NCBI RefSeq assembly: GCF_003674065.1
Contig: NZ_RDBE01000007.1
Location: 234,893-298,892, forward strand
Length of the DNA stretch: 64,000 nt
Direction of reading: 5' to 3'
From: Nocardioides mangrovicus
GTDB taxonomy: Bacteria > Actinomycetota > Actinomycetes > Propionibacteriales > Nocardioidaceae
Shown here: positions 31,079 to 56,940 of the stretch, piece after piece
Layout of the letters: each line of letters opens with the position of its first letter
Position numbering within the stretch: the stretch's first letter is position 1
Translations under genes and position numbers: made by a program
The notes under the pieces: generated by a model
The model's database searches: none
Told to the model about the DNA's origin: nothing
The model's input: only the letters and a program-made list of their open reading frames with translations

Positions 31079-31396
31079 TCATAGTTCCATCGCTCGGGCA
31101 GCGAGGTTGACGGATTCGCGGACAGCAGCCTTTGGGGTGGGCCACGTCATGGCGGCGATCGGGTGCGCGCTATTGATCGCGAGAGGGAGGGCGTCGGCGA
31201 TGAGGTGCACAACGTCTAGGGGAGTGACCCCCTCGACGCGGAAGGGGCTTTGCATCAGCACATGGCGCAGGATGCGTGCCGCAGCGGTGAATGGAACGCG
31301 TTTTCGCAGCTCAGAGCCGGTCAGTGCGGACGGGCTGGCCTGTAGGCCGGGAACGGTGCCCGCCTCAACAACCACCAACACCCATGACCACCACAA
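31079..31396 (-). CDS. Hypothetical protein spanning the left island boundary
   Basis: An open frame of 105 codons whose last part (FTAAARILRHVLMQSPFRVEG, then PLDVVHLIADALPLAINSAHP when split) looks protein-like, while its start is a translation of the attachment core and island end. It stops in ATGA just before a possible upstream start (31082) of the EAL protein. The true start may have been cut by the insertion. I do not recognise it and the call is weak. Confidence 0.3.
   Translation of the reverse strand: MWWSWVLVVVEAGTVPGLQASPSALTGSELRKRVPFTAAARILRHVLMQSPFRVEGVTPLDVVHLIADALPLAINSAHPIAAMTWPTPKAAVRESVNLAARAMEL
31326..31351. repeat. Left attachment site (26-bp copy of the rnpB 3' end)
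   Basis: The 26 bases starting GCGGACGGGCTGGCCTG are identical to 56532-56557, which is the last part of rnpB. To the left lies older chromosome, to the right island sequence (AACGGTGCCC). This is the duplicate left by site-specific integration, with rnpB kept whole at the other end. Confidence 0.88.
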
Positions 31397-31449
31397 CGCT
31401 CTGACCTGCGGAAACGCGGAATCGAGCGACGGTGGTCAACGGGCAGAAA

Positions 31450-31481
31450 TGAAAAAGTTGTGCACAGTATGTGCGCAGTAG
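31450..31481. repeat. Left arm repeat, likely integrase arm-type site
   Basis: TGAAAAAGTTGTGCACAGTA continues into TGTGCGCAGTAG; 31 of 32 bases match 56460-56491 in the same orientation. Within it TGTGCACAGTA and TGTGCGCAGTA are 11-base tandem units. Its place about 100 bases inside the attachment core fits an arm-type integrase binding site. Confidence 0.7.
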
Positions 31482-31507
31482 CCGCCCCAGTCTCGCTGTA
31501 GCTGACT

Positions 31508-31942
31508 CAAGCGGCCACCGCCGAAGACTTGGTGGCTGACGCCTTCGTCGTCGCGCTGCGCCGACTAGACGCGGTGCCCCTCCGGGAGGGTGACGCCCGG
31601 GCCTGGCTCATCGCCGCCGTGCGGCGGCTGGCCCAAATGGGCGGCGCCGTAACAGCACCCGTGAGGAGTATCGGCGCGCTGCCGTAGGCGATGAATGGCA
31701 TGCCCGTGCAGGGGCGTCCGCCGAGGACATCGCCACCGAGCAAGACGCTTGGCCTTCGCGACCTCGCAACGTTGTCGGAGTCGTCTCGCGACGTGCTGCT
31801 GCAGGTGGCCTGGGAGGGACTCACCCCTGACCAGGCCGCACGGATGCTCGGTGTCAGCCGCAGCATGTCGGCGTGCGGCTGCACCGGGTCCGCCGCCCTC
31901 TCGAACAACTCTCCCGCCTCGACCGCCCCCTCACCGCTCTAG
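31508..31942 (+). pseudogene. ECF RNA polymerase sigma factor remnant
   Basis: Pieces of one ECF sigma factor lie in three frames: region 2 as TAEDLVADAFVVALRRLDAV from 31514, then a middle piece EEYRRAAVGDEWHARAGASA, and region 4 as LSESSRDVLLQVAWEGLTP and DQAARMLGVSRS ending near 31870. At least two frameshifts and the lack of an N-terminus show it is dead. It stands directly upstream of the gene that would have been its partner. Confidence 0.65.
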
Positions 31943-31952
31943 GGAGCCACCA

Positions 31953-32477
31953 ATGACCGATCTGCTGACCCGCCTCACCGCCGCACAACCCACCGTCGCC
32001 GCGCTGCCAGACACCGCCGACGGTTCGCTCGCCTACCTCAACTCCTTGGTGCGCGGCTCCAGCTCCCACGCCGAGGCGATGTACAGCGCGCTGGTCGAGC
32101 TGGCCGCCTCGCACACCCTGCCAGCCCGGACACTGGCCGCGGCTTACGACGCCCTTGCGACCCTTGACCACGCCAGCACCGACGACGTCGACATCGACGG
32201 GCGCCCGGCAATAAAGGTCAGCTACGACCAGCAGTTGACGCGCAGCACCGATGTCTACGTCTTCGACCGAGCCACCGGACAGGAGCTCTCAACATACGAC
32301 CACAGCCCGCAGGCTGACTTCGTCTCGACCACCACCCTGGCCGAAGTCGTCGACGCCGTACCGGCCCGCGTCATGGCCGAGTGCGTAGCAGCCTCTCGCC
32401 AGGGCGCCCACTGCGTCTTGTCTTGGGGACGGGCACTGCTGCGCACGCAGTCGGGCTGTCCAGATTGGACGGGCTGA
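31953..32477 (+). CDS. Sigma-factor-associated protein fragment
   Basis: A 174-residue frame starting ATG with AGGGAG upstream. SHAEAMYSALVELAASHTLPA followed by DIDGRPAIKVSYDQQLTR and VYVFDRATGQELSTYDHSP (split) resembles the C-terminal half of CU044_5270-type proteins encoded next to ECF sigma factors. The normal N-terminal membrane part is missing, and the last 30 residues look like read-through. Probably part of the same decayed pair. Confidence 0.45.
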   Translation: MTDLLTRLTAAQPTVAALPDTADGSLAYLNSLVRGSSSHAEAMYSALVELAASHTLPARTLAAAYDALATLDHASTDDVDIDGRPAIKVSYDQQLTRSTDVYVFDRATGQELSTYDHSPQADFVSTTTLAEVVDAVPARVMAECVAASRQGAHCVLSWGRALLRTQSGCPDWTG

Positions 32478-32573
32478 TCAGCGGGCCGGGTGGCGTCGTC
32501 TCCTACCTCACGTATCAGCGCAACTGGGAAAGGTGATGGTGGAAATGTTCGCGACCTGACCGTTAGTCGCTGA

Positions 32574-32891
32574 CTAGTCCCGTCCGGTGAGCTGCTCGAC
32601 GACACGCAGCAATCGCTGGTCTCCATCCCGAGCCGCGTTTGCCTGCAGGCGTTGCAAGCGGGTACGCACAAGCGACGCCTCGAACTCTTGAAACTCGGGG
32701 ATCCCGATCAGCAGGTCGTAGGCGGCAGCGGCCGAAGCCCTGCTGGACTCAGCCCACGATGTTGAACCACCGACCGAGTTCAAGGCCGTGCTGGTCAAGA
32801 ACTGATCCAGCACGAGAATCGCCGATCGCAGCTCGCCCATCAGGGCTTCATCTCGCCAGCGTTCAGCCACAGGGTGTCGCAAACATGGCAT
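32574..32891 (-). CDS. Hypothetical protein
   Basis: A 105-residue helical protein (RWRDEALMGELRSAILVLDQ, then YDLLIGIPEFQEFEASLVR) with no family I recognise. The ATG at 32891 has a GGGAGG almost touching it; a frame open to 32972 adds 27 residues of poor quality. From 32892 to 33457 I see no convincing gene. Confidence 0.5.
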   Translation of the reverse strand: MPCLRHPVAERWRDEALMGELRSAILVLDQFLTSTALNSVGGSTSWAESSRASAAAAYDLLIGIPEFQEFEASLVRTRLQRLQANAARDGDQRLLRVVEQLTGRD

Positions 32892-33457
32892 TCCCTCCCA
32901 ATGGAGCCACAAGCCGACACCATACCTACGGAGCAACCCCCTCGATGTGTGACAAGCCTCCTCATTTCGCAATCAGAGGATGGTGTCTATGGTGGGCGAT
33001 GAGACTGCCCCGCGGTGTCTGTGGCGGTGACGACGTGAGTGCGGTAGTTGGTGGACGCAGGCCGCAGTCTCGGCGACTGGGATGGCTTGATGAATAAGGT
33101 TTCTGCGGCGTTAGCCGGCGGTGTGGACCACTTGCGGTAACCCGGTGTGGTGCGCAGGTTCGCTGGGACGGCGTCTCTCGCGCGGCTGTCGTGCGACATC
33201 AGGACAGAGATGTGGTGTTCGATGGAGCGACTCGGCCTGGTCGAATTGCTTGACAGCAACTAGTCGTGGACATGTGGGTGGAGTGACTGTGCCTGCGAGG
33301 GCAAACGGCGGTGACTCGGGTATCCACCGTGTGGATGGCTGAGAGGAGCGAGGCCCCAGCCGCTTGGTGGGGGCTCCGCTTGTCAAGACCGCGGTGGCTC
33401 AACTTGGATCGTAAGCAGGCTTCCGGATCTCACCGCTGCTTTTGCGAGGTGCAATCG

Positions 33458-33595
33458 GTGACCACGACCTATACGCAGCGACGGTGCCGCGCTCGTTGGC
33501 GGCTGACCGAGCACCGCATCGTGACCGTAGCCGACGAGACAGATTCGGAATGTCTCGACTGCGGCAAGATCGTCACAGATCGCTCCACGCGCTAG
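33458..33595 (+). CDS. Small zinc-ribbon-like protein
   Basis: A 45-residue protein, VTTTYTQRRCRARWRLTEHR followed by a Cys pair in ECLDCGKIV. One Cys, one His and a CxxC knuckle fit a small metal-binding ribbon found in actinobacterial accessory regions. The GTG at 33458 has GAGG about nine bases upstream. It faces a second small Cys-rich gene on the other strand. Confidence 0.4.
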   Translation: MTTTYTQRRCRARWRLTEHRIVTVADETDSECLDCGKIVTDRSTR

Positions 33596-33611
33596 AGCAG
33601 TGTGTGAACCG

Positions 33612-33788
33612 CTAGATGTCGAGCGGGCCGACGTCGGACCCACCACCGGTGTTGGTCTCGCAGCGTTGGTTGGTGCAGATCCGGCGATCGTGGACGGCGC
33701 GGTCCTGGTGTTGGACCGGGGCACCGGCGATGTGGCGCACCCGGACCTCGGACCCGCACACGCGGCAGGGCGGCTGATTGTCGCTCAT
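33612..33788 (-). CDS. Small CxxC zinc-ribbon protein (58 aa)
   Basis: The minus strand reads MSDNQPPCRVCGSEVRVRHI then RRICTNQRCETNTGGGSDVG, a 58-residue protein with two cysteine pairs (CRVC and CTNQRC) typical of a zinc ribbon. Codon third positions are GC-rich, as expected for real coding. It converges on the small gene at 33458. The function is unknown; such proteins often bind nucleic acid. Confidence 0.6.
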   Translation of the reverse strand: MSDNQPPCRVCGSEVRVRHIAGAPVQHQDRAVHDRRICTNQRCETNTGGGSDVGPLDI

Positions 33789-33832
33789 CTCGCCAGTCTG
33801 ACGGAGCCGACAAGCGTTCGATCCATTGAATG

Positions 33833-33886
33833 GCTGAGTACGTGCTCGATCGGCAGCACACGCTGCCGGCCGAGCACGTACTCAGC
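33833..33886. repeat. 54-base two-tier hairpin
   Basis: The outer arms GCTGAGTACGTGCTCG and CGAGCACGTACTCAGC are perfect 16-bp complements. Inside, CGGCAGC and GCTGCCG form a second 7-bp stem around ACAC, separated from the outer stem by a two-base bulge on each side. There is no T-run. The structure stands upstream of the small minus-strand zinc-ribbon gene. The 237 bases to 34123 hold no gene I can support. Confidence 0.75.
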
Positions 33887-34123
33887 GTGAAGACACGTGA
33901 TCGAACATCTCTGCGCCGCCGCTGCGACACCACCGGTCGGTGAGTACCTCAGCGTCGCCGTGGCTGGGCAGGTGACCAGAGTCGAGGCAAGTGCTCGAAG
34001 GGGGACGGTGGCGTCTTGGCCCAGCAGTACGCCTAGACGCCAAAGCCTTGGTAGTTCTGATGTGGAGTCCGCGCCGGGACGCGAACGAGAGAAGCGTTCT
34101 GGAGCGGCGGGCTTAGCTCGGTG

Positions 34124-34456
34124 CTACTGCAGGGTCGGCCAGGACCCAGAGCGGATGAAGGACGCGGTGGACCCACGGCGATCGGGGGCACCAAGAGTGA
34201 AGAAGTGCAGACCGTCGTGGGTGATGCGAACCCGCTGACCCTTTGCGGCTAACGCGGCAGCGCGTGATCGCCACGTGTCGTCCTCCGTGAGGCCGTCGAG
34301 GACGCTGGGGTTGTGAACCTCCAGGTCGATGTCGTCGCCGAGATGGCGCATGGTGGCACTGGAGCGTCGTCCGTCAGAGCGGTGAATCCACACATGGACC
34401 TCGACGCGCTCAGTGCATCGTGGCACTGACACGTCGTGGCGCGCATCGCTGGTCAC
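34124..34456 (-). CDS. Hypothetical protein coupled to the LuxR gene
   Basis: A 110-residue protein, beta-rich in the first half (VEVHVWIHRSDGRRSSATM, GDDIDLEVHNP) and ending VRITHDGLHFFTLG. The GTG at 34456 overlaps the stop of the LuxR gene as GTGA, which supports the start and shows translational coupling. No recognised family. Confidence 0.55.
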   Translation of the reverse strand: MTSDARHDVSVPRCTERVEVHVWIHRSDGRRSSATMRHLGDDIDLEVHNPSVLDGLTEDDTWRSRAAALAAKGQRVRITHDGLHFFTLGAPDRRGSTASFIRSGSWPTLQ

Positions 34457-34854
34457 GGCTGCATTCCCTCGAAGCGGGCATGGCGCCTGGGTGGCCGCTG
34501 GGGTTCGTGAAGGTCGGGGCGGAATCCGTTCTCGATCGCCCAGACAATGGCTTCGCTGCGCGTGTGTAGGCCTAGCTTGGCGTAGCCGTTACGGATCGCG
34601 GTCTTCACGGTGTTGACGGCAATGTGGAGCCGATTGGCGATCTCAATGTTGCTCAACGCGTGCGCAATCAGCCGTAACACGTCAGCTTCGCGGCGGGTGA
34701 GTCCCAGATCTCGGCCCGGCCAGTCGGCTCGGTGGGCGTCTTCCAGGGTTGGCTCCACATCAGCTCGGGACACGTCTGAAGCTGGGGCGCGGTAGCGGGA
34801 CAGGTCGGCCAGGTAGGTCACCGGAAAGCACTCCAGCAGGTGGGGCATCCACAA
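34453..34854 (-). CDS. LuxR-type HTH response-regulator fragment
   Basis: The C-terminal 65 residues are a clear LuxR/NarL DNA-binding domain: LGLTRREADVLRLIAHALSN followed by EIANRLHIAVNTVKTAIRNG. The preceding VLLWMPHLLECFPVTYLADL resembles the end of a receiver domain. The frame has no usual start beyond the TTG at 34854; upstream, AVLVSQADASRIGLPLLKQI in another frame (to 35017) looks like the missing receiver part, so the gene is probably frameshifted near 34,880. Confidence 0.6.
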   Translation of the reverse strand: MWMPHLLECFPVTYLADLSRYRAPASDVSRADVEPTLEDAHRADWPGRDLGLTRREADVLRLIAHALSNIEIANRLHIAVNTVKTAIRNGYAKLGLHTRSEAIVWAIENGFRPDLHEPQRPPRRHARFEGMQP

Positions 34855-35017
34855 CAGGACGCTGGTGGCGAAACGCGTCGCCGGGCATGCGACGCGTGGT
34901 AAGAGATTCGATCTGCTTGAGAAGTGGCAAACCGATTCGAGACGCGTCGGCTTGGGAGACGAGGACAGCGTGGTGGCAAGAATCTAACGGGGGGCGGCAA
35001 CATTCTGTGTCCCTCAC

Positions 35018-35603
35018 CCCGACCCGGGCTAGACCGAGTCAAGTCTGTTGGTCTCAACAGAGTGCCTCAGCCGACCTGCCAGCAGGTTCGGTTATCGGCT
35101 CACAAGAGCATGAGAATCGCTCATCAGGGTGCCAGGGGTCGGCGCGCAGTCGAACCACCTGGGTGGGTCCCCGGCAGGCCAGCCGTGGCTCGCCAGGGAA
35201 CCGGGTTGCTTATTGGCCCATACCCCCACCCCCGGAATCGAGCCTTGGACTCCAACGGCTCCTGTCAGCAACGGAGCCGGACCTCTCGCAGCACAGCGGA
35301 CGATCGGACTCAAGACACTCCCGTTGCATCTGTACGGGTTACGTCTAAACAAGCCCGACCCCCGACGGACGGGCGTTCGCGTCAGAGGCTCGGCCCCGCC
35401 CACGCTCGCGGCGTCGATTGTCCGCGTCTTCACCCCCCCGGGGGGCAGCGGCTCAAAGTTGAGAGGCCGATCCGTGTCGCAATGTCGAGCGAAGTTCGCG
35501 GCGCCGATGGCGGGTCCGATCAAGACCGCAAACGCCGTGCGAGACCACCACTGCCCGGGCCGTCGTAGTCATGGCAGGTGTTCTGTCGACGTAGCGTGCG
35601 GGC
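35018..35603. other. Intergenic region without a recognisable gene
   Basis: About 590 bases in which frames exist on both strands but none shows a protein family, consistent codon bias or a convincing start. A stretch near 35235 (minus strand GGCTCGATTCCGG) looks a little like a tRNA T-arm but no cloverleaf can be built. Confidence 0.5.
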
Positions 35604-36000
35604 GTGAGCTTTGCGCCGGACTGGTGGGAGTCGGAGAATCCCCGCTTCGAAGACGGTGCGGGCGGTTGTCTTTTGCGAGTAGTACGCGCTGAAGCTTGAT
35701 GACCTCAACAGCGACTTTCGTGAGATCTGTGCAGAGGTCTACGAATGCCGCTCGGGAAGTTGGGCGCTTGTGGGGTATCAAGATGACGTTCGCTGGCCGA
35801 AGGTAGGTGAATCCGGTGGCGCAGGCTGGCAGCCCTATCGGATGTGGTCGTTCGGCCGCGAAGGACCTAACACGCCGGTCGCGCTGCGGTGGTGCGGTCG
35901 CGTCGACACTCTCGTCACCGATGTCGAGGGGTGGTGGTTGCTGGCGAGACCAGTACAGGAACCTCCGGATTTTGACGATTGGCCCATTCCGCAGTGGTAG
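35604..36000 (+). pseudogene. Hypothetical protein with a frameshift
   Basis: From the GTG at 35604 the frame reads SFAPDWWESENPRFEDGAGG and stops soon after. Moving one base near 35,680, the text continues as YALKLDDLNSDFREICAEVY, then VGYQDDVRWPKVGESGG and ends in PDFDDWPIPQW at 36000. The two parts read like one acidic, Trp-rich protein of about 130 residues. I know no family for it. Confidence 0.45.
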
Positions 36001-36044
36001 ACGGTTGGAGGCAAGAACCGGATACACCTCCTGGTCGACCACTG

Positions 36045-36390
36045 GTGAGGGGACGCGTCCTGGCGTGGTTCTGGATCGCGGGCTGGACGACGCTGAACTA
36101 TCTGCTGTCGGTTCATGCGGTCTCGGGGGTTTGGGGGGTGGTTAGGTCTGCTGGTGTGGGCGGCAAACTTCCCGTGGTCGTCGGTGTGGAGCGCCGTCCC
36201 CGCTGTCTTGTTCTCAGTCGTTCCGGTCCTTGACGGCTACCCGGGAAGTTGGTTGTGGTGTTTGATGACAATCGTTCCGGCAGCGTTGTGCCAATCAGCG
36301 ACAGTGGCGTGGATTTTTTGGGCTGTATCCCGCGCGAGACGATGGAGCCGACAGCCCGTCGCACGCAGCGTCAGGTCGGCTCGGCGTTAG
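36045..36390 (+). pseudogene. Small membrane protein, frameshifted
   Basis: RGRVLAWFWIAGWTTLNYLL from the GTG at 36045 changes frame near 36,120 to FGGWLGLLVWAANFPWSSVW, followed by two further hydrophobic stretches and a basic C-terminus. The FPWS motif and three to four spans resemble small actinobacterial membrane proteins of unknown role. Whole-length translation is broken, so it is probably inactive. Confidence 0.4.
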
Positions 36391-36607
36391 TTCTGGGTCG
36401 TGTGCTGCCCTCGGCTAGCTGTAGTAGAGCGCTGCAATTAAGAGGGCATTTCGGTTCGGGATACGCATAGAGTCGGTCCCGCGGGCCGAGTGCTAGGCGG
36501 GTAATGATCGCCCAGCAATACACCTGCGGTTGCGGGTGCTGGCCGTGGCGCCAAGGGAGCGCCGCACCGGCCCGGCAGGGCCTGAGGTCAAACGTTGGGA
36601 TGCCCGA

Positions 36608-36835
36608 ATGCATGAGGGCAGGATGGACCCCGGACCCCCCGAAGACCCGCTTGTCGCCCCGATCGAAGCTTTGCTTGGTCGAGGTGCGGTTGCTATTGGG
36701 ATGCGCGAGCTGCAGTTGAGGGGTCGTCTGGATGCTCGGTCTGCGGTAGCCATCTGCGCATGTATCAGTGACGGAGACGCCTGGCGCTGGGTGATCTACG
36801 AGTCCACCGACGGCGCTCTGGCGTGGTACCGATAG
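36608..36835 (+). CDS. Hypothetical small protein
   Basis: A 75-residue frame: MDPGPPEDPLVAPIEALLGR, GMRELQLRGRLDARSAVAIC, and a Trp-rich end WRWVIYESTDGALAWYR. A second ATG at 36623 has GAGGGCAGG before it and may be the true start. Coding quality is fair; family unknown. The 200 bases after it, to the LysE gene, show nothing. Confidence 0.4.
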   Translation: MHEGRMDPGPPEDPLVAPIEALLGRGAVAIGMRELQLRGRLDARSAVAICACISDGDAWRWVIYESTDGALAWYR

Positions 36836-37035
36836 ACGACACAGGTTGGCCCTCGAGAGCATCTGGCGACCGAGGTGGGAGGACCGCTGCTGGAACGGGA
36901 TGTGGCGAGCTGCCGAACGACCTGTCGTCTCCGGGCGGGAGGGTGCGGTAGGAATGCGGGGTGGTCGGTGGGGCGCTTCCAATGGCCTGGTGAACGGTCC
37001 GAGCCAGCGTGCGCAGAGACGGTGGAGCTGCGCGG

Positions 37036-37644
37036 CTAGTGGTGTGTGGTGGCGAGCTTTGCGCCAAGAGCGAGGTAGCCGAGCGCGAAGGTGCGTCGGA
37101 TCCGGCGCAGCAGACCGGGTTGACCGATGACGTGGGTGCGCATGGCGCTGGCGAACAGGCCGTAGGCGGTGAAGACGACGAAGGTCATGGCCATGAACGC
37201 AGCGCTCATGGCCAGCATCTGGGTGGTCGGCGATCCGTGGGCTCGATCCACGAATTGCGGTAGGAACGCGAAGAAGAACAAGGTCAGCTTGGGGTTGAGC
37301 AGGTTGGCCAGGACGGCGTTGCCGATGGTGCGCCAGGCGGGAGCCGGGTCGGTCGCCTCGAGGTCCAGTGCGCCGTTGTCGTGCCAGGTCGACCAGGCCA
37401 TGTAGAGCAGGTACAGCAGCCCAGCGGCCTTCAACACGTCGAAGGCCAGACCACCGGCGCGCAGCATCGCTGCCGTGCCGGTCATCGCGGCCGCCAGGTG
37501 CGGCACGATGCCGAGCGTGCAGCCGAAGGCTGTGATGACCGACAGTCGGCGGCCACCGCGCAGCCCGGCTGCGATGGTTAGAACGGCTCCGGTGCCGGGC
37601 GTCGCGACGATGACGAACGAGGTCAGGAAGAACGCGACGCCCAC
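37036..37644 (-). CDS. LysE/RhtB-family amino-acid exporter
   Basis: A 202-residue membrane protein with about six hydrophobic segments. FVIVATPGTGAVLTIAAGLR is the family signature near the N-terminus, and VLANLLNPKLTLFFFAFLPQ the second conserved region. It would export amino acids or related small molecules. The GTG at 37644 fits the family start; the TTG further upstream adds eight unlikely residues. This is one of few intact genes in the left part of the island. Confidence 0.88.
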   Translation of the reverse strand: MGVAFFLTSFVIVATPGTGAVLTIAAGLRGGRRLSVITAFGCTLGIVPHLAAAMTGTAAMLRAGGLAFDVLKAAGLLYLLYMAWSTWHDNGALDLEATDPAPAWRTIGNAVLANLLNPKLTLFFFAFLPQFVDRAHGSPTTQMLAMSAAFMAMTFVVFTAYGLFASAMRTHVIGQPGLLRRIRRTFALGYLALGAKLATTHH

Positions 37645-37849
37645 AGGTGGATCCTGCTCCTGGTGCAACCGCCTCGGCGAGTACCCGTCTCACGGAGCCG
37701 ACGTCGAGGCGCCGAGCGGGGTCGGGGCCGGAAGTCGGGGGTCGGGGTTCGGGGGTTGGGCCAGGTCTTCACCGTGGTGCGGTTTGCCTCGACGCGTCGC
37801 GACCGTGCCCGTGGTGGTGCCGAGGGCGCAGAGTGGAGATGATGCCAAC

Positions 37850-38656
37850 GTGGGTATCCGCGACTGGCGTAGGAAGCGCAAGATGGCCGACCCCGTGCGT
37901 GGGGAGTTCCGTGTCAGCGGGTCCTACCATCCCCGGCACCAGGCGGACTCGAACTTCGCGGACATGCTGACCGGTGTGGTGGTCGCCGACGGTGTGCCGC
38001 CCACTGCGACCGAGCACATGGATCACCATGGTCTCGGCTATAGCAACCGGGTCCTCCCGGTCCTGGTCGACCGAGCCGATCCGAGCGTGTCGGTGGTGTT
38101 GTGGAAGGAGGTGCGTCCCGTGGACTTTCAAGCCCAGGCTCGACAAGCCGCTCGCAACCAAGCACAACGCATGGCCGGCGAGACACCGACGACATCACCC
38201 ACGACGTCACCCACGACGCCCGGCTACCCTGAACCTGCGGTGACGGTGGTCAATAGCCTCCACGACCTACCTCCATGGCTCAGCGCGGCGGTCGAGAACG
38301 CGCTGGACGGACACGGCGACGGCCATGGCGACGAGGCGCAGAACGTGGAGATACACCTCGGCGACGTCGCGGGTGCGGTCTCACCAGCAGTCGGACGAGC
38401 GGCTCACTCGACGCTCATGGGCGTGACCGACGTGCCCGCACCCGCCTATGCCCTTCCGGGACCGACCGCATCGCTGACCGACCTCACCTTGCAGCTGCGA
38501 AGAGCCGACGGTTCGACCTACACCGCGCAGACTCGTATGGGGTTCCGCTCGGCGCAGCGTCGCGCCGAGCTGGCGGTCATCGGCTCCACCATCCCTGTGC
38601 TCGTCGATCCCGAGGACGAGCAGCACGTGAGCATCGACATCTCAGCCTGGACGTGA
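37850..38656 (+). CDS. Hypothetical protein, island cargo
   Basis: A 268-residue soluble protein with two similar halves: an N-terminal part with RVLPVLVDRADPSVSVVLWK and a C-terminal part with GSTIPVLVDPEDEQHVSID. Each has the pattern PVLVD followed by acidic residues and a beta strand. Between them is a Thr/Pro/Ser-rich linker (TPTTSPTTSPTTPG). This internal duplication suggests two copies of a small beta domain. The GTG at 37850 is preceded by GGAG at a long distance. Function unknown. Confidence 0.55.
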   Translation: MGIRDWRRKRKMADPVRGEFRVSGSYHPRHQADSNFADMLTGVVVADGVPPTATEHMDHHGLGYSNRVLPVLVDRADPSVSVVLWKEVRPVDFQAQARQAARNQAQRMAGETPTTSPTTSPTTPGYPEPAVTVVNSLHDLPPWLSAAVENALDGHGDGHGDEAQNVEIHLGDVAGAVSPAVGRAAHSTLMGVTDVPAPAYALPGPTASLTDLTLQLRRADGSTYTAQTRMGFRSAQRRAELAVIGSTIPVLVDPEDEQHVSIDISAWT

Positions 38657-38880
38657 AGTAGTCAGCGCACCTGCGCAGGGACGGCCGACCTCCGGCTCGG
38701 AAGACGCGAGCGCGGCTGACGCATCGCCGATCTTCACTTCGCACTGCAGGTCTGATCGCAACAGACGCCGGACTTGAGCCGAGTCGCGATTGCGCCCCGA
38801 ATCCTGGGAGACCGCCCCGGGCTAGCGCGCCCGGTCGGCTGACCAAAAGCGCAGCCAGGGCCCTGATCGAGACCATACGT

Positions 38881-42338: not shown

Positions 42339-42348
42339 GCGCCTCGCC

Positions 42349-42540: not shown

Positions 42541-42600
42541 CCGCCAGGCAAAAGACGCGCGAGAAGGATCGGCACGTATGCTACAAAGGTCTGTAGATAA

Positions 42601-49506: not shown

Positions 49507-50447
49507 TGGCCGTCGTCCAACCCAGCGCCGTCGGCGGCGTGCCGGCAGCCGCCATCGCCGCGCCGGAGCGCCGCTGGCGAGACCTGCTGCGGCAGGTGAT
49601 GGGCCGTCCCAGTGCGGCGGCCGCCGTCGTGGTCGTCCTCCTCCTTGTTGCGGCGGCGCTGTTGGCGCCCGTGCTGACCCCCTACGACCCCACGCACATC
49701 GACGTCTTCGCCCGACTGCAGGGACCCTCTATTCGCCACTGGCTCGGCACCGACTCGCTGGGTCGCGACAACCTCACCCGGACCCTGTACGGCACCCGGG
49801 TCGCCCTCGTCATCGCCGTGCCCTCGGTGGTCGGGGCCTTCGTCGTCGGCGGGGTGCTCGGCCTGCTCGGGGGCTACCTCGGTGGCTGGCTCGACCGGGT
49901 GCTGGTGGTGGTCTTCGACGCCTTGGTCTCCTTCCCTTCGGTCATCCTGGGCCTCGCGCTGCTGACCCTCCTCGGACCCTCGGTGGCCAGCGTCATCCTT
50001 GTGATCGCCACCGCGCTTGTGCCCTACTACGGGCGGCTCGTCCGAGCCCAGACGCTCGCCGAGCGTGAGGTGGGCTACGCCAGGACCGAGCGTGCGCTGG
50101 GTGCCTCCCGCACCCGGGTGCTCCTGCGCCACCTCGTGCCCAACGTCGTGCCGACGCTGCTCACGGTGGTGGCCATGGACGTGCCCGGCGCCGTGGTCGA
50201 CGCCGCCGGCCTCGCCTTCCTCGGGCTGGGCGTGCAGGCACCCACCCCCGACTGGGGGGTCATGCTCAACGACGGCTTCACCAACATCGCCGGCTCGCCG
50301 TGGGGCGTGGTCGGACCGATCCTCGCGCTGGTGGTGATGACCAGCGCCTTCCTGGTGCTGGGCGAGTCGGTCCGCGCGGTGCTCGACCCGCGGGGGCCGG
50401 CCCCACGCCGCTCACGCCAGTGGACCTTCCGGAAGGCGAGCCGATGA
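49506..50447 (+). CDS. ABC transporter permease, DppC type
   Basis: A 313-residue permease. The N-terminal cytoplasmic lead ends at the first span (VVVVLLLVAAALLAPVL); HWLGTDSLGRDNLTRTLYGT and the EAA loop YARTERALGASRTRVLLRHL are the DppC hallmarks. It overlaps both neighbours by one to four bases, so the whole transporter is translated as one unit. Confidence 0.92.
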   Translation: MAVVQPSAVGGVPAAAIAAPERRWRDLLRQVMGRPSAAAAVVVVLLLVAAALLAPVLTPYDPTHIDVFARLQGPSIRHWLGTDSLGRDNLTRTLYGTRVALVIAVPSVVGAFVVGGVLGLLGGYLGGWLDRVLVVVFDALVSFPSVILGLALLTLLGPSVASVILVIATALVPYYGRLVRAQTLAEREVGYARTERALGASRTRVLLRHLVPNVVPTLLTVVAMDVPGAVVDAAGLAFLGLGVQAPTPDWGVMLNDGFTNIAGSPWGVVGPILALVVMTSAFLVLGESVRAVLDPRGPAPRRSRQWTFRKASR

Positions 50448-52558
50448 CCAGTACCACAGCCACAGTGGATCTCACGCTCAGCGTGAGCGACCTCTCCGTC
50501 CGCTACGACAGCGGCACATCCTCTCGCCTGGCCCTGGATCGGGTGAGCCTGGAGATCGGGGCCGGGGAGATCCTCGGGATCGTGGGGGAGTCCGGCAGCG
50601 GCAAGTCCACGCTGACCAGCGCCATCACGGGGTTGCTGCCCGCCAACGGCCAGGTGGTCGGTGGCTGCATCAGGCTGCAGGGCCGCGACCTGGGCGCGCT
50701 CGACCCCGACGAGCTCAGGTCCGTGCGCGGCTCGCAGGTGGCCGTCGTGTTCCAGGACCCGACGACGAGCCTCAACCCGCGGCTGCCCGTCGGCGCCCAG
50801 CTCGAGCAGGTGCTCGACGCCCACGGCGCGGCGCGCGGCGCCGACCGGACGTCGCTCCTGGCCTCGAGGCTCGCCGAGGTCGGCCTCGCCGACCCCGAGC
50901 GCGCCCTGACCCGCTACCCGCACGAGTTCTCCGGCGGCATGCGGCAGCGCGTCATGATCGCCATGGCGCTGCTGCTGGAGCCCGCGCTCGTCATCGCCGA
51001 CGAGGCCACCTCGGCGCTCGACCTGACGCTCGAGGCCCAGATCCTTGAGCTCCTGCTCCGACTGCGGGACGAGCGCGGCACCTCGCTGATGTTCATCTCC
51101 CACGACCTCGGCGTGGTCTCACAGCTGTGCGACCGGGTAGCCGTCATGTACGCCGGACGTGTCATCGAGGAGACCTCCGGGACAGCGGTCCTGGCCAGCC
51201 CGGCGCATCCCTACACGCAGGCGCTCGACGCGGCCACACCCACGGCGAGCTCGCAGCGCCGACGCCTGGCCTCGGTACCGGGGCGCATGCCCGATCTGAC
51301 CGCGCCGGCCACCTCCTGCAGCTTCGCCCCGCGCTGCCTGCACGCCGCCGAGGTCTGCGAGACCCTGTCTCCCGAGCTGCTGACCACCTCCACCGGTCGG
51401 GCGCGCTGCCTCGTCTACGACCCCGAGCACCAGTCGACCTGGAAGCGTGAGCCCGTCGTCGCGGATTGGCAGCCCACCGAGGCCGCGGCTGAACCCCGGG
51501 GTCCCGCCGTGTCGAGCGAGGAGCCCCCGCTGGTCCTGGTTGACGACCTGGCCGTGCACTTCGGTGGGACCAGGGGCCGGTGGCGCCGGCACCGGACCAC
51601 GATCAGGGCCGTCGACGGCGTCTCGTTGCGGGTGCACCGTGGGCAGATCCTGGGAGTGGTGGGGGAGTCCGGGTCGGGCAAGACCACGCTGGGGCAGGCG
51701 ATGGTGGACCTGCTGCGACCCACCCGCGGGTCGGTCGTGTTCGACGGCACCGCCACCAGCTCGCTCTCGGGTGCGGCCCGGCGAGGATTCCGGCGTCGGG
51801 TGCAGATGATCTTCCAGGACGCCTACGCCAGCCTCTCACCGCGCATGCGCGTGAGCGAGCAGGTGACCGAGCCCTACCTCATCCACCGCGTGCCGGGCTC
51901 GGAGCGTCGCTCGGCCGAGGAGCTACTGGCATCAGTCAACCTTCCTGCCTCGGTCGCGCGGCTGGTTCCGTCCGCGCTGTCCGGGGGGCAGGCCAGGAGG
52001 GTCGGCGTCGCCCGAGCCCTCGCCGGTGGTCCGGACCTGATCGTGGCCGACGAGCCCACCTCGGGGCTGGACCAGTCGGCAGCCTCGGCGGTGCTCAACC
52101 TTCTCACCGACCTCCGGGATCGCACCGGGGTCTCGGTGGTCCTCATCAGCCACAGCCTCCCGCAGGTCAAGGCGGTGGCCGACGCAATCTGTGTCATGTA
52201 CTTCGGCCAGGTGGTGGAGCAGGGTCCGGTGGACGTGGTCACCCGCGATCCGGGTCATCCCTACACCCAGGCGCTGCTCGCCCTGGCCCCGGATCGCGAG
52301 CCTGGTCGGCGGTTGGCGCGGCGCCGCCTCCTCGTGGCGGGCGAGGTGCCCTCGTGGGGGGACCCACCAACCGGCTGCCGCTTCCACCCGCGCTGCGCCT
52401 TCGCCCGCGACGTGTGCCGAACCACCACGCCCCCGCAGGTCCAGCTGTCCGACGCAGGCCACACCGCGGCCTGCCACTTCGCCGACCTGGTCGCAGCCGG
52501 ACAGCTGGAGCCGACGCGGCCGGCACCGGTCGCCGCAGGCACCGCCGCCACGCCCTGA
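50444..52558 (+). CDS. Fused double ABC ATPase, peptide transporter (DppD-DppF fusion)
   Basis: A 704-residue protein with two complete nucleotide-binding domains in one chain. First: Walker A GESGSGKST (48-56), signature EFSGGMRQRV, Walker B LVIADEATSALD, and the C-terminal oligopeptide extension with Cys residues (CSFAPRC). Second, from about residue 365: Walker A GESGSGKTT, signature LSGGQARRV, Walker B LIVADEPTSGLD, ending HPRCAFARDVC. In classical systems these are two genes. The fusion is common in actinobacteria. The ATG overlaps the permease stop. Confidence 0.92.
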   Translation: MTSTTATVDLTLSVSDLSVRYDSGTSSRLALDRVSLEIGAGEILGIVGESGSGKSTLTSAITGLLPANGQVVGGCIRLQGRDLGALDPDELRSVRGSQVAVVFQDPTTSLNPRLPVGAQLEQVLDAHGAARGADRTSLLASRLAEVGLADPERALTRYPHEFSGGMRQRVMIAMALLLEPALVIADEATSALDLTLEAQILELLLRLRDERGTSLMFISHDLGVVSQLCDRVAVMYAGRVIEETSGTAVLASPAHPYTQALDAATPTASSQRRRLASVPGRMPDLTAPATSCSFAPRCLHAAEVCETLSPELLTTSTGRARCLVYDPEHQSTWKREPVVADWQPTEAAAEPRGPAVSSEEPPLVLVDDLAVHFGGTRGRWRRHRTTIRAVDGVSLRVHRGQILGVVGESGSGKTTLGQAMVDLLRPTRGSVVFDGTATSSLSGAARRGFRRRVQMIFQDAYASLSPRMRVSEQVTEPYLIHRVPGSERRSAEELLASVNLPASVARLVPSALSGGQARRVGVARALAGGPDLIVADEPTSGLDQSAASAVLNLLTDLRDRTGVSVVLISHSLPQVKAVADAICVMYFGQVVEQGPVDVVTRDPGHPYTQALLALAPDREPGRRLARRRLLVAGEVPSWGDPPTGCRFHPRCAFARDVCRTTTPPQVQLSDAGHTAACHFADLVAAGQLEPTRPAPVAAGTAATP

Positions 52559-52614
52559 GCGATCCCTCCCACCCGCGTCCCGCACGTCCCGTCCCCTCTT
52601 GGCATAGGAGCCCC

Positions 52615-54609
52615 ATGTCCTCGGTCTGGACCCACCGCATCGAGCACGGTGTCCGCATCCCCATGCGCGACGGCACCCTGCTCTCCGCCGACCTCTACCT
52701 GCCCGACGGGGAGGGCCCGTGGCCGCTGGTGCTGGAGTACCAGCCCTACCGCAAGGACGAGGTCGACTCCGAGAAGCGCTTCTACACAGGCCTGCCGGAG
52801 CACGGGTATGTCGTCGCGCGCCTCGACGTCCGCGGCACCGGTGCCTCACCCGGGACGGTCAGCGATGAGTACGTCGAGCAGGAGCAGCAGGACGGGTACG
52901 ACGCCGTCGAGTGGCTCGCCGAGCAGCCGTTCTGCGACGGCAATGTCAACATGATGGGCATCTCCTACGGGGGCTTCACCGCGCTGCAGGTCGCCGCCAC
53001 CCAGCCGCCGCACCTGCGCTCGGTGATCCCCATGCACTTCACCGACGACCGCTACCGCGACGACTGCCACTACGTGGGCGGGCACCCCCGGATGTACTAC
53101 GACATCGGCTTCTACGGCACCTTCATGGTCGCCTACAACGCACTCCCGCCCGACCCGTCCTGGGCCGAGGACTGGGCCGAGGTCTGGCAGCAGCACCTCG
53201 AGGGCGACGAGCCGTACCTGCTCACGTGGCTGAGCAACCAGACGGACGGTCCGTACTGGCGCCACGGCTCCGTCGGCGACATCGCGGAAGACATCCGCTG
53301 CCCGGTCTTCATGATCGGCGGCTGGGGCGACGGGTACCGCAACGCGCCGCTGCGCCTCTACGAGAAGCTGACCGTGCCGGCCCGGGTGCTGATGGGCCCC
53401 TGGAACCACGCCGTGCCGGACTCCGCCGTCCCGGGTCCGCGGATCGACCACCTGCACGAGGTGGTGCGCTGGCTCGACCACTGGTGCGGTCGCGAGGGCG
53501 GGGACGCCGGGCTCGACCCGGCGCCCGTCGTCGTCTACGAGCAGCACTTCGAGCCACCGGTGGACGCCGACCGCACCCTGCAGCCCGGCTGCTGGCGGGC
53601 TGAGCGCAGCTGGCCGCCGGCCGGTGCTGCGACGACCACGCTGCACCTGGGAGAGGACGGCACCCTGGCCGCGGACGCCCCCGACCCGGGGCAGGACACG
53701 CTTGTCTACGACGCGACCGTGGGCACCCACGGCGGACTCTGGTCGGCGGGGGTGGCGTTCGGACTGCCCGGCGACCAGCGGCCCGACGAGGCCCGCTCGG
53801 CGGTCTACACCACGGAGCCCCTGACCGAGGACCTCCACCTCCTGGGCCGGGCCACGCTCACCTTGCACGTCTCGACGAGCGCCACAGTGATCGGTTTCGT
53901 CGCCAACCTCAACGACGTTGCTCCCGACGGGTCGTCACAGCTGGTGGCCAAGGGAGTCCTAAACGCGACCCGGCGCGAGTCGCTCAGCACCCCGCAGCCA
54001 CTCGAGCCCGGCCGGATCTACGAGTTACAGATCGAGATTGACACCACGTCGTGGCGCTTCCAGCGCGGTCACCGTCTTCGGATCGCCGTCGCCAACGCCG
54101 ACTGGCCGAATATGTGGCCCACGCCCGAACCCGCCACCAGCCTCCTGCATTGCGGTACCGGACACCTCTCCCGTCTGGAGATCCCCACCGCGCCAGCCAC
54201 GCCCGAGGTCGAAGCGCCCGTCTTCCGGGCGGCACCCGACGAGCCCGAGCCCCATCTCTCGCTCGCCCACGCACCGACGTGGCGCGTCGAGCGCGACGCG
54301 CTGAGCCGGCAGACGTGGGTGCGCTACCACTTCGACTACGCCGAGCGGGTCAACGCCCACACTGTCGTCGAGCGCAGCTACGACTTCGAGACCCACGTCG
54401 ACCCCGACGACCCCGCCCGTGCGAGCGCACACGGCGCGCACACCAGCACCATCCGTCGAGAGGGCACGACGACCGTCGCGGTCGCCGGGACGACAATCAC
54501 CGGCTCACCCACCCACTTCCACCTCACCACCCAAGTGCAGGTCCACGTCAACGGAGTTCATCGAGCTGCCCGCAACTGGACAATCTCTATCCCGCGAGAG
54601 CTGTGCTAA
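52615..54609 (+). CDS. CocE/NonD-family hydrolase (S15 X-Pro peptidase-like)
   Basis: A 664-residue alpha/beta-hydrolase. The nucleophile is Ser117 in MMGISYGGFTAL, the acid probably the Asp in GGWGDGYRNAPLR, and the base the His in GPWNHAVPDS. The C-terminal 250 residues form the jelly-roll domain of the family (TLHVSTSATVIGFVANLNDV). Members cleave acyl esters, beta-lactam-like acids or X-Pro peptides. There is no signal peptide. It starts 56 bases after the transporter with AGGAG before the ATG, so it probably acts on the imported compound in the cytoplasm. Confidence 0.88.
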   Translation: MSSVWTHRIEHGVRIPMRDGTLLSADLYLPDGEGPWPLVLEYQPYRKDEVDSEKRFYTGLPEHGYVVARLDVRGTGASPGTVSDEYVEQEQQDGYDAVEWLAEQPFCDGNVNMMGISYGGFTALQVAATQPPHLRSVIPMHFTDDRYRDDCHYVGGHPRMYYDIGFYGTFMVAYNALPPDPSWAEDWAEVWQQHLEGDEPYLLTWLSNQTDGPYWRHGSVGDIAEDIRCPVFMIGGWGDGYRNAPLRLYEKLTVPARVLMGPWNHAVPDSAVPGPRIDHLHEVVRWLDHWCGREGGDAGLDPAPVVVYEQHFEPPVDADRTLQPGCWRAERSWPPAGAATTTLHLGEDGTLAADAPDPGQDTLVYDATVGTHGGLWSAGVAFGLPGDQRPDEARSAVYTTEPLTEDLHLLGRATLTLHVSTSATVIGFVANLNDVAPDGSSQLVAKGVLNATRRESLSTPQPLEPGRIYELQIEIDTTSWRFQRGHRLRIAVANADWPNMWPTPEPATSLLHCGTGHLSRLEIPTAPATPEVEAPVFRAAPDEPEPHLSLAHAPTWRVERDALSRQTWVRYHFDYAERVNAHTVVERSYDFETHVDPDDPARASAHGAHTSTIRREGTTTVAVAGTTITGSPTHFHLTTQVQVHVNGVHRAARNWTISIPRELC

Positions 54610-54850
54610 CCCGAAGCCGCTTCACCGTTGTTGACAAGGCCAGGTGCGGACGGCGGGGTCACCACTCGCGCGTCTCGACGGCCACGACACGTCCAGGCTG
54701 ATATGACGGGTCTGGCCAGACGGCTCCGAGATCAAGCAGGGCCGTTGCGCCGGCAGTCAGGCGGCGGTGAGCACGGACAACGTGATTTTCGTCTTCCGTC
54801 AGGACAGGCACTCTGCATCCGGGTGCTATCGCCGCACATTGGAGGCAACC

Positions 54851-55084
54851 GTGGACGTCACGACTTCGCGCACGCGCGACCTCGACCAGCACAGCGATGG
54901 TGAGCTGCTCACGCTGGCCGAAGTAGCCGACTTCCTGCGAGTTCCGGTCAACACCTTGCGCTACTGGCGACAGATCGGTCGCGGACCGCGCTTCTTCAAA
55001 ATGGGTCGACACCTGGTCACGAGCGCGGCCGACCTGCGAACCTGGGTGCAGAGCCAGAAGGACGGGGCATCGCCGGTCGCGTGA
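54851..55084 (+). CDS. Excisionase / MerR-like HTH protein
   Basis: A 77-residue DNA-binding protein: LLTLAEVADFLRVPVNTLRY followed by WRQIGRGPRFFKMGRHLVTS, the pattern of excisionase-type helix-turn-helix proteins. The GTG at 54851 has GGAGG five bases upstream. It stands just before the integrase and would direct excision of the island. Confidence 0.88.
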   Translation: MDVTTSRTRDLDQHSDGELLTLAEVADFLRVPVNTLRYWRQIGRGPRFFKMGRHLVTSAADLRTWVQSQKDGASPVA

Positions 55085-55135
55085 GCATCGGCTGGGCCGA
55101 CTGCGACGCGTCCATCGGCATCCTTGAGGAGAGTC

Positions 55136-56296
55136 ATGGCCAGCATTCGCAAGCGCAGCGTCAGCTGGACTAACTCCAACGGGCGCGTACGAGGCGCCTC
55201 CCGCTACGAGGCGCATTTCCGTGACCGCGCCGGCCAGCAGCACCGGCGCATGTTCGCGCTCAAGAAGGAAGCGCAGCAGTGGCTGGATGAGCAGACAGCT
55301 GGGTTGGTCGTCGGACAGTGGGCCGATCCGCAGGCCGGCAAGGAGTCGTTGGCCGCGTTCGCGGAGCGCTGGCGCCAGCGACAGGTGCACGCGCCGACGA
55401 CCGAGGCCGCGTTCGAGACCAGTCTTCGAAACCACATCTACCCGGTGCTCGGCCCAGTGCGGCTGGACTCCATCACCTCTGCCGACGTCCAGAGACTGGT
55501 CAAGCAGTGGAGCTTGACGGCTGCGCCGTCGACCGTTCGGCAGCGCTACACGGTGCTGTCCATAGTGCTCAGAGCAGCCGTACGGGAGCGGGTCATCGCC
55601 GTGACACCGTGCGAACGGATCAAGCTGCCCAAGGTGGCACCGGCCTCGAGCCTGGTGCCCATCTCTACAGCAACGGTCCTCGCCCTGCGTGGGGAGATCG
55701 CAGCTCGCTACAGCGCACTGATCACGGTCGGCGCCGGGACCGGAATGCGTCGGGGAGAGCTCCTCGGTCTGACGCTGGACCGGGTCTCGTTCGACTTTGC
55801 AACGATCCGGGTGGATCGCCAGCTGGTTCGAGCCTCAGTCGGTGACGAAGTCCGGTTCGCCTCACCCAAGACCGACGCCTCGGTCCGAACCATCCCCGTC
55901 GCGGACGTCGTCCTCGACGCCATCCGGGCGCACCTCGAGACGTTCGGCACTCACTCTTCGGGCCTGGTGTTCTCCTCTGCGATCGGCACGCCGCTTCGAA
56001 CGAGCACCCTGTGGACCGCCTGGCGGGCGGCAGCGCGACGCGTCGGTACAACGGCCACCCCACACGACCTGCGTCACTACTACGCCTCCCTGCAGATCCA
56101 GGGCGGCACCTCCATCAAGGCGTTGCAGGCGCTACTGGGCCACAAATCGGCCGTCGAGACATGGGACACCTACGGCCACCTCATGGGCGACGAGGACACC
56201 CGATCGCGGACAGTGGTGCAGTCCGCCTTTGAGGGCCCCGCTGTCAGAGGCGTCGGTACGGAGCCCATCCCGTTACGACCTCCGAACCCTCGCTGA
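55136..56296 (+). CDS. Tyrosine recombinase (phage-type integrase)
   Basis: A 386-residue integrase with an N-terminal arm-binding domain (about 1-60), a SAM-like core-binding domain (70-165) and a C-terminal catalytic domain. Active-site residues are all present: R205 in GTGMRRGEL, K245 in SPKTDAS, H310 and R313 in TPHDLRHYYAS, H336 in LLGHKS, and Y346 in DTYGHL. The ATG has TTGAGGAGAG upstream. It lies between the excisionase and the right attachment site, about 235 bases from rnpB, and is expected to recombine at the rnpB 3' end. Confidence 0.95.
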   Translation: MASIRKRSVSWTNSNGRVRGASRYEAHFRDRAGQQHRRMFALKKEAQQWLDEQTAGLVVGQWADPQAGKESLAAFAERWRQRQVHAPTTEAAFETSLRNHIYPVLGPVRLDSITSADVQRLVKQWSLTAAPSTVRQRYTVLSIVLRAAVRERVIAVTPCERIKLPKVAPASSLVPISTATVLALRGEIAARYSALITVGAGTGMRRGELLGLTLDRVSFDFATIRVDRQLVRASVGDEVRFASPKTDASVRTIPVADVVLDAIRAHLETFGTHSSGLVFSSAIGTPLRTSTLWTAWRAAARRVGTTATPHDLRHYYASLQIQGGTSIKALQALLGHKSAVETWDTYGHLMGDEDTRSRTVVQSAFEGPAVRGVGTEPIPLRPPNPR

Positions 56297-56459
56297 GACG
56301 GACATCGCCAACCGCTACGGCGGAGACGTCCGCGTGCGTCCGCAGACGTGCTCGCGAGGGCCGGGCGATGGGTCGGCGGCCGCCGACGCCGGGGCCGACG
56401 TGCCGCCTCTGGGACCCGCCGGAAACTGCCTGTTCGAGCCGGCTGGCGAGGGCACCGAG

Positions 56460-56491
56460 TGAAAAAGTTGTGCACAGTATGTGCACAGTAG
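56460..56491. repeat. Right arm repeat, likely integrase arm-type site
   Basis: TGAAAAAGTTGTGCACAGTA continues into TGTGCACAGTAG. It matches 31450-31481 at 31 of 32 bases and contains two exact TGTGCACAGTA units in tandem. It lies 41 bases inside the right attachment core. Confidence 0.7.
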
Positions 56492-56530
56492 AGGCCTCCG
56501 AAATGCGTTTGCCCAGGTCAGAGGCCTAAA

Positions 56531-56940
56531 AGCGGACGGGCTGGCCTGTAGGCCGGGTTCTGTCCCCGGGGCCGTTGCCGGCGCCCGGTGGGCGACCATC
56601 CATCTACGACGACCGTTGCCGGCCGCCTCCTGCAGTCCACCCGCGGACGATGAGGCGGGCCGCCTCGTCCGCGCGGACCCTCCGGGGAGGGTCCTTCTTG
56701 ACCTTGCTCCAGGCGGGGTTTGCCGAGCCGCGACGGTCGCCCGCCGCGCTGGTGGTCTCTTACACCACCGTTTCACCCTGACCGCTGCCGTGAGGCAGTG
56801 GCGGTCTGTTCTCTGTGGCACTGTCCCGCGGGTTTCCCCGGGTGGGTGTTACCCACCGCCCTGCCCTGTGGAGCCCGGACCTTCCTCGACGTCCGCCCCC
56901 GTGGGGGTGTGCGCCGCGGTCGCCCGGCCAGCCCATCCGC
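56531..56940 (-). ncRNA. rnpB: RNase P RNA (bacterial type A), with right attachment site at its 3' end
   Basis: The minus strand begins CGGATGGGCTGGCCGGGCG and ends CAGGCCAGCCCGTCCG, so the two ends pair as helix P1. The conserved parts GAGGAAGGTCCGGGCTCC, CACAGAGAACAGACCGCC and AGGGTGAAACGGTG are present. It is the catalytic RNA that trims tRNA 5' ends. Bases 56532-56557 are the integration core shared with 31326-31351, so the gene was restored on insertion. A short TTTT lies just past the 3' end. Confidence 0.93.

Follow-up and report, generated by a model that had tools for sequence, protein, structure and literature searches.

A 25-kb element, very probably integrative and mobilizable, at the 3′ end of the RNase P RNA gene of Nocardioides mangrovicus

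We analysed a 64,000-nt stretch of the Nocardioides mangrovicus genome (the window, to which all plain coordinates refer) and found that its positions 31326–56557 are very probably a mobile element integrated next to rnpB, the gene for RNase P RNA; of the known element types, an integrative mobilizable element (IME) describes it best. The direct observations behind this reading are the terminal repeat, the genes carried, the same ends in many genomes, the pairing of rnpB helix P1, and rnpB cores in phages. Sequence comparison gives strong support for integration at the 3′ end of rnpB, since 18 of the best 30 loci of related integrases lie near rnpB, the element ends recur, and phages carry the core without rnpB. 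Below, G000 is the window genome and other G numbers are the compared genomes.

Results

The element is bounded by two copies of the rnpB 3′ end

The 26-bp sequence GCGGACGGGCTGGCCTGTAGGCCGGG was found exactly at both ends of the element (Table 1), as an initial annotation of this DNA had reported. These are the only exact copies in the whole 4.1-Mb assembly, which removes the objection, raised in the same annotation, that the repeat might be widespread in the genome. No third core-like site within 3 mismatches was detected in the window (0 in 100 shuffles), and the best other match (20/26) was rejected as a third core, being the 5′ strand of rnpB P1 itself. Rfam places a complete class A RNase P RNA on the minus strand beside the element (RF00010, 243.1 bits, full model 1–367), so the right repeat copy coincides with the 3′ end of rnpB and extends one base beyond it, in agreement with the earlier assignment. 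RNase P RNA is encoded by a single-copy gene in this genome. ARAGORN located one tRNA in the window, at 3870, and none close to either element end. GC content over most of the island is ~0.63–0.70, versus ~0.70–0.75 to the left of 28 kb and to the right of 57 kb.

The element carries an integrase whose relatives recur beside rnpB

Next to rnpB the element encodes a tyrosine integrase (Int) matched in Pfam, NCBIfam and PHROGs, for which the ATG at 55136, preceded by GAGGAG, is the likelier start. It is preceded by a helix-turn-helix HTH_17 protein matching the PHROG family "excisionase and transcriptional regulator" (the Xis-like protein), and a MobF relaxase-helicase, scoring 115.5 bits against the NF041492 NCBIfam cut-off of 100 bits, lies further inside. 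The integrase retains R, K, HxxR, H and Y, and MobF retains its HUH and Walker A motifs. All three proteins had been proposed in the initial annotation, including the complete set of integrase active-site residues, and all three were recovered.

A scan of genome contigs returned 10 integrase relatives, five of which, at 52–64% identity, adjoin rnpB in Nocardioides and Marmoricola records; no rnpB was present in the stretch examined around the five at 45% identity or less. Across 341 genomes of the family, the integrase was matched at 1e-30 or better in 162. The 30 best loci were taken with flanks of up to 1.5 kb and searched for rnpB by pattern and by cmscan, which placed rnpB within 1.5 kb at 18 of them, namely the 14 top-scoring loci and four of the remaining 16; related integrases do occur beside rnpB in other genomes, a check suggested at the outset. 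Among the other 12, the loci of G163, G170, G202 and G107 sit between two rnpB cores. Matches to Int, Xis and MobF were found together in eight relatives. In five of them (G188, G191, G013, G016, G018) they lie on the rnpB side, and in the other three (G163, G170, G202) two cores enclose them.

On a tree of 38 integrase rows, from which the repeated loci of G039 and G107 had been removed, the rnpB-adjacent label (21 rows) takes 6 changes versus a mean of 12.9 after shuffling, and the window's subgroup of 8 rows is entirely rnpB-adjacent, with support of 100/100. The tree group "between rnpB cores" includes G155 and G219, where rnpB or a core is ~5–7 kb off on the same contig, and G303, with two cores of unlisted place, was classed as "other".

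Second cores are common in the family

Twenty-two regions on the integrase side of rnpB, some a few kb long, were examined for a second core. The rnpB-end pattern failed in 4, and 9 of the 18 regions with a recognizable end contained a second exact copy of it, 24–38 bp in length, at 8,741 to 25,206 bp (G000, G307, G311, G246, G279, G185, G335, G289 and G018). The shared part begins at CCCGG in 7 of these nine two-core elements. When an integrase was not required, the core pattern was found in 231 of the 341 family genomes and twice or more in 37; a reversed control pattern gave a single match in 6 of the 341. Multiple cores do not always signify an element: both copies in G111 are whole rnpB genes, and the extra copies in G193 and G206 are ~0.6–1 Mb away on the same contig. 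The initial annotation had regarded rnpB as an uncommon target. Within this lineage that view does not hold; judged by these pattern counts, in which not all of the 37 multi-core genomes represent elements, rnpB is not a rare target here.

An even sample of the class (394 genomes) contained the core pattern in 72 genomes, with single matches of the control pattern in 10. More than one core was seen outside the family in nine genomes (G344, G349, G352, G366, G381, G390, G506, G557 and G593), and in all three that were inspected (G506, G557 and G593) an integrase lies between the cores. G506 holds a tandem array, with cores at 899, 17,933 and 36,448 of the stretch and an integrase right after each of the first two.

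The ends share a conserved attachment-site architecture

Alignment of the ends revealed a family layout of the attachment (att) sites, consisting of an arm, a motif, the core, the motif inverted, and a second arm in the same orientation as the first. The arm site is made of two tandem 11-nt repeats, of the TACTGTGCACA type in the window and of the AGTCCGCA type in many others; its two copies constitute a second direct repeat just inside both ends of the element, which the earlier annotation had missed, as it had the inverted motif. For the 18-nt motif CTCTGACCTGCGGAAACG, control sequence totalling 172 kb across 10 loci contained no site scoring at least 15/18. With profiles made without the window, the distal end of its element was recognized at E 6.8e-14 and the proximal one at E 7.7e-20. 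Applied to 37 stretches from 35 genomes, the distal profile retrieved its 8 training ends and 14 others at E <1e-8 (G015, G188, G176, G013, G140, G170, G163, G167, G202, G191, G039, G000, G122 and G045, the G122 match covering part of the profile). The proximal profile without the core (E <0.001) identified an end at 9 of 24 genus rnpB loci, of which 7 were in the training set and two, the window and G017, outside it. An integrase beside rnpB, a second core, and motif and arms at both ends, by which we define an rnpB-targeting group, are all present in the window element.

Core pairs of very different spacing were also encountered. At G191:C1:2993537 to 3200911 two rnpB cores with a matching distal end are 207 kb apart, and Int (with one internal stop), Xis and MobF lie on the rnpB side, possibly marking a very large rnpB-integrated element. 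Cores only 0.86 kb (G122, L133), 1.5 kb (G176, L131) and 2.4 kb (G167, L130) apart, with element-type ends and no integrase match, may represent mini-elements or deletion remnants. Within the window island, a weak extra motif copy was noticed at 41364–41390, and TGGTCTACAG, which resembles part of the core, lies ~50 nt from it; this site is perhaps an old element end.

Helix P1 of rnpB remains paired

Helix P1 has its 3′ strand within the att core, which also covers the segment preceding that strand, with the dyad GGCC-TACA-GGCC. RNase P RNA is essential. Because it is also single-copy, and its 3′ end would be rewritten at each entry and exit of an element, P1 must stay paired with the 5′ strand of the host. 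At least 13 positions of P1 are paired in 23 of 23 genus rnpB genes, element present or not (G011, with a short rnpB match, was excluded from this comparison and from the wobble count below). In the window, P1 forms 14 pairs including a single G-U, and the gene is complete, consistent with the earlier proposal that the duplicate allows rnpB to remain functional. P1 pairs vary on both sides between genomes (C-G, U-A; an altered block in G022), which argues that P1 is kept by selection. Such pairing would explain why an element needs a core copy fitting its host. Wobble pairs were used to ask whether elements import a foreign P1 strand; they are present in 5 of 9 rnpB genes with an element end versus 3 of 14 without, a difference that does not establish such import (Fisher p 0.18).

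In the window a stable hairpin of the element directly follows the rnpB 3′ end. Among seven element loci folded, three gave z < -4, two were near -2, and the others were at -1.2 and 0.2; none of six empty loci fell below z -1.5. With z < -4 in just three of seven element loci, the hairpin was ruled out as a general element feature.

rnpB cores occur in phages and viral contigs

Neither the exact 20-nt core of the window nor its TATGAG variant was found in IMG/VR viral contigs. The less specific core CCCGGCCTACAGGCCRRCYC retrieved 7 contigs, five of which were rejected as phage attachment sites (attP), RNase P RNA being present in them (four whole, one cut by the contig end). The contigs L137 and L139 have the core without rnpB, beside regulator and integrase genes, and their integrases are 76% and 57% identical, respectively, to an rnpB-adjacent integrase of G506; cmscan of L137 gave RNase P at 23 bits. 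RNase P RNA-end sequence also starts 15 bp past the integrase stop of Arthrobacter phage TripleJ and includes 33 nt identical to the end of rnpB in genome G342, and Arthrobacter phage Kukla contains the same 34 nt as TripleJ. No RNase P was called in the TripleJ stretch by cmscan at E 0.01, as expected for a bare core. The cores of the viral contigs and of TripleJ and Kukla look like att sites of the excised form, as integration at the rnpB end predicts.

The five rejected IMG/VR contigs encode phage-borne RNase P RNA of 110–140 bits among tRNA genes (L138:2876-3257, L140:7979-8360, L141:1-213, cut at the contig end, L142:7965-8346 and L143:1235-1616). Microbacterium phage A3Wally (195 kb, cultured) has a compact, unannotated RNase P RNA-like stretch between two tRNA-Pro genes (L150:853-1073, record 93852-94072), scoring 72 bits versus a gathering score of 100, and phages Zooman and Big4 gave a core-query match like that of A3Wally.

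The left flank and points that weigh against the reading

Several findings weigh against an rnpB-integrated mobile element. The ancestral junction was not found: the initial annotation had expected the sequence before 31326 to join rnpB in relatives lacking the island, and a search of 24 genus genomes showed no case of 31325 running directly into rnpB. The rnpB-adjacent integrases are clustered yet do not form one clade (0% of 200 bootstrap trees), and a five-row clade at 41–44% identity is not within 1.5 kb of rnpB. Integrase genes are broken in several rnpB-adjacent relatives (G016, G191, G013 and G311); internal stop codons occur in the integrase rows of G016, G191, G013, G140 and G107. Ends outside the family match weakly, at ~1e-5 in G506 and little beyond the core in G557 and G593. 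The transporter/peptidase block at ~49–54 kb has a host-like GC of 0.72. Finally, the genome may use a transfer system without the VirB4-type family PF12846, or mobility may have been lost.

The best empty locus, that of G003, runs from an RNB-domain gene through ~0.65 kb to rnpB, then to MTAP and onwards, and is colinear with both outer sides of the window. The window has 18.0–31.3 kb between the RNB-domain gene (16.6–18.0 kb) and the island. Within this interval, 18.1–18.8 kb (TerC family) is close to rnpB in G013 and G014 also, most of 18.9–26.6 kb matches genes located elsewhere in relatives, and 27–31.3 kb gave short or weak matches alone. Immediately outside the distal core, 31277–31319 matches the core-less proximal profile at E 0.053 in 64 kb, at the sole expected place and orientation, with a 16/18 motif at 31299; G311 and G163 also have a proximal end beyond the distal core, better preserved. 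We read this segment, from its profile match, as the scar of an earlier tandem rnpB element. On this reading the outer left flank is not the original flank of the bacterial attachment site (attB).

The same scar raises the possibility, which we entertain tentatively, that the element is composite, with two or more rnpB elements in tandem, one now lacking its integrase, and the outer cores bounding a fused unit. Tandem arrays exist elsewhere, with the three G506 cores 17.0 and 18.5 kb apart and the proximal ends beyond the distal cores of G163 and G311, and the weak motif at 41364 would separate off a 15-kb right part of usual size. That inner match is itself weak (E 0.43), however, there is no recognizable core near 41.3 kb, and the window arm sites are identical at 31 of 32 positions, as expected of the two ends of one element.

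Other features of the flanks were recorded. Of the 16 genus regions compared, 13 have the RNB-domain gene (window 16558–17991) 5′ of rnpB, whereas G003, G023 and the window have it 3′ of rnpB; G003 and the window also have MTAP on the 5′ side, indicating local rearrangement. Just left of the island, 28683–31145 encodes an EAL-DICT-PAS-GGDEF protein of 820 aa, without a match in the 24 genus rnpB loci. Two short repeat families (~82 and ~65 bp; ~23819–23901 and 58788–58858) recur at ~10 other places in the genome at roughly 77–93% identity, and the family of 58788–58858 matches both strands and is palindromic.

Gene content very probably places the element among integrative mobilizable elements

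Eighteen open reading frames (ORFs) wholly inside the island (10 + 8) were scanned with Pfam, and PHROGs was run on 10 island ORFs. An IME is characterized by its own integrase with direct-repeat att ends, its own relaxase and/or oriT, the lack of a full conjugation machinery, and excision with mobilization by a helper, which is predicted here. The element has the first two, the relaxase being MobF. Among the 18 ORFs, a set that leaves out some small ORFs, Pfam detected no type IV secretion system (T4SS), FtsK/TraB/SpoIIIE-type or Rep family, and PF12846 had no match in the window genome, where genome-wide coupling-protein families were outside the search; the same PF12846 search was positive in 10 of 14 control genomes. 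PADLOC reported partial matches alone and no defence system.

A cargo block of a TetR-type regulator, a peptide-type importer and a peptidase sits between MobF and Xis. The Xis–MobF distance is 9.3 kb in the window versus 0.2–1.2 kb in the eight relatives with all three genes (the G013 MobF match being split into four pieces), and the cargo therefore seems to have entered the mobility module in the window.

The left 10 kb of the island is low in GC with few ORFs having a family match, which, together with the broken integrases of relatives (G016, G191, G013 and G311), would suit a degenerate, immobile island whose ends are intact and whose transfer and excision are dead. We consider this rather unlikely, as the Int, Xis and MobF frames of the window are open with the expected motifs kept, and the cores and arm sites at the two ends are close to perfect. 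An actinomycete integrative and conjugative element (AICE), defined by an FtsK/SpoIIIE-type translocase and Rep, or a full self-transferring integrative and conjugative element (ICE), is highly improbable with neither these families nor T4SS among the 18 ORFs and no PF12846 in the genome, even if MobF has a helicase domain, integrase and Xis are present, and the 207-kb core pair of G191 with Int, Xis and MobF has room for a full transfer set. A prophage was dismissed, no phage structural or packaging family being found by PHROGs in 10 island ORFs (which returned solely integrase, excisionase, regulator, helicase, methyltransferase and beta-propeller families) and no structural family by Pfam in 18.

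Table 1. Features of the element and its surroundings in the window
Feature	Position	Strand	Remarks
Integrated element (very probable)	31326..56557	none	25,206 bp core to core
Distal att core, copy of rnpB 3′ end	31326..31351	-	repeat search
rnpB-proximal att core, made up of the final 25 nt of rnpB and one further nt	56532..56557	-	includes 3′ strand of P1
rnpB, full-length	56533..56935	-	RF00010
Tyrosine integrase of rnpB-targeting group	55124..56296	+	
Xis-like HTH_17/MerR-type protein	54767..55084	+	
MobF (TrwC-type) relaxase-helicase	42658..45444	+	HUH, Walker A
Cargo: peptide-type ABC importer (substrate-binding protein, two permeases, fused ATPases) and S15/CocE-type peptidase	46868..54609	+	
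TetR-type regulator, divergent from importer genes	46112..46840	-	
Left part, low GC: LuxR-type regulator, LysE-type exporter, NHL-repeat protein, glyoxalase, methyltransferase	31352..42600		
Element hairpin directly after rnpB 3′ end	56492..56527	-	-19.9 kcal/mol, z -4.3
Distal arm site, two tandem 11-nt repeats (TACTGTGCACA type)	31450..31481	-	
Proximal arm site, equal orientation	56460..56491	-	31/32 nt same as distal
Conserved 18-nt motif CTCTGACCTGCGGAAACG, distal	31399..31416	+	18/18
Conserved motif CTCTGACCTGCGGAAACG, proximal, inverted relative to distal	56506..56523	-	16/18
Weak extra motif copy inside island	41364..41390	+	15/18, profile E 0.43, unproven
Segment read as decayed proximal end of second rnpB element, abutting distal core from outside	31277..31319	-	profile without core

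Discussion

In the model we propose for this mobilizable element, where we infer the crossover position, the assignment of proteins to sites, excision and transfer, the integrase would recombine the rnpB gene of the chromosome with a copy of the rnpB 3′ end carried by the element. Insertion would leave one 26-bp copy on rnpB, so that P1 still forms, and place the other at 31326. At each end, the integrase would probably link the core to the arm site with its tandem 11-nt repeats. The likely place of action of the Xis-like protein is near the inverted CTCTGACCTGCGGAAACG motif, where it would probably promote excision. MobF could then nick the circle released, and the conjugation machinery of a helper could carry it, since no VirB4-type ATPase was found in the genome.

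A broader proposal joins two claims, that P1 of rnpB is a third standing structural-RNA att class beside tRNA and tmRNA in Actinomycetes, and that the element alters RNase P expression or 3′ processing; taken together we regard them as unlikely. Under this joint proposal the users of the site would be mobilizable elements, the 207-kb element, integrase-less mini-elements and temperate phages, and the effect on expression or processing would follow because the element supplies the P1 3′ strand as well as, at some loci, a strong hairpin directly after the gene. If true, integration would act on an essential ribozyme instead of sitting neutrally beside it.

The need for P1 pairing with the host offers a natural host-range filter, and rnpB elements are well suited to studying how a mobile element protects the gene it invades. 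The elements described here range from less than 1 kb to 207 kb and include tandem arrays and phages, two of which are in culture, so that the set can be tested. Its integrases, with their defined site, are an addition to the tools for actinomycete genome engineering, and a search limited to tRNA and tmRNA genes would miss this target class.

Our literature search, which mostly did not extend to subscription journals, so that a wider description may exist, found one clear rnpB target in print, in Clostridium novyi sensu lato, where a phage-inducible chromosomal island (PICI) is inserted in rnpB (PMC8473940). Other literature naming rnpB was set aside, as it concerned marker use, listing or citation and no attachment target. 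Like the window element, the Clostridium PICI has a tyrosine integrase and the RNase P RNA gene as its target; unlike it, in the sections of that article cited here, the PICI is described as splitting rnpB, has phage-satellite genes, cas14a and a repressor of the Staphylococcus aureus pathogenicity island (SaPI) type, and belongs to a different phylum. The Arthrobacter phages TripleJ and Kukla resemble the window element in having an rnpB 3′-end core and an integrase 36% identical to that of the window, and differ in being phages with another core sequence. Islands in tRNA and tmRNA genes found by TIGER/Islander likewise have an integrase adjoining a structural-RNA gene, whereas their sites are sorted into tRNA/tmRNA, coding and intergenic, with rnpB unnamed (PMC12424338). 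Restoration of tRNA and tmRNA ends by the inserted island is described in part of an earlier account (PMC4383910). Actinobacterial ICEs with a MobF/TrwC relaxase, in the portion of the survey drawn on here, share with the window an integrase and a TrwC-domain relaxase, and the Frankia elements among them are usually at tRNA genes (PMC3218068); the window element differs from those ICEs in its rnpB site and in the lack of a T4SS or FtsK-type translocase in the scanned ORFs. The mechanism is familiar from tRNA and tmRNA genes, and what sets this form of it apart is the target, the architecture of the ends and the breadth of use in Actinomycetes.

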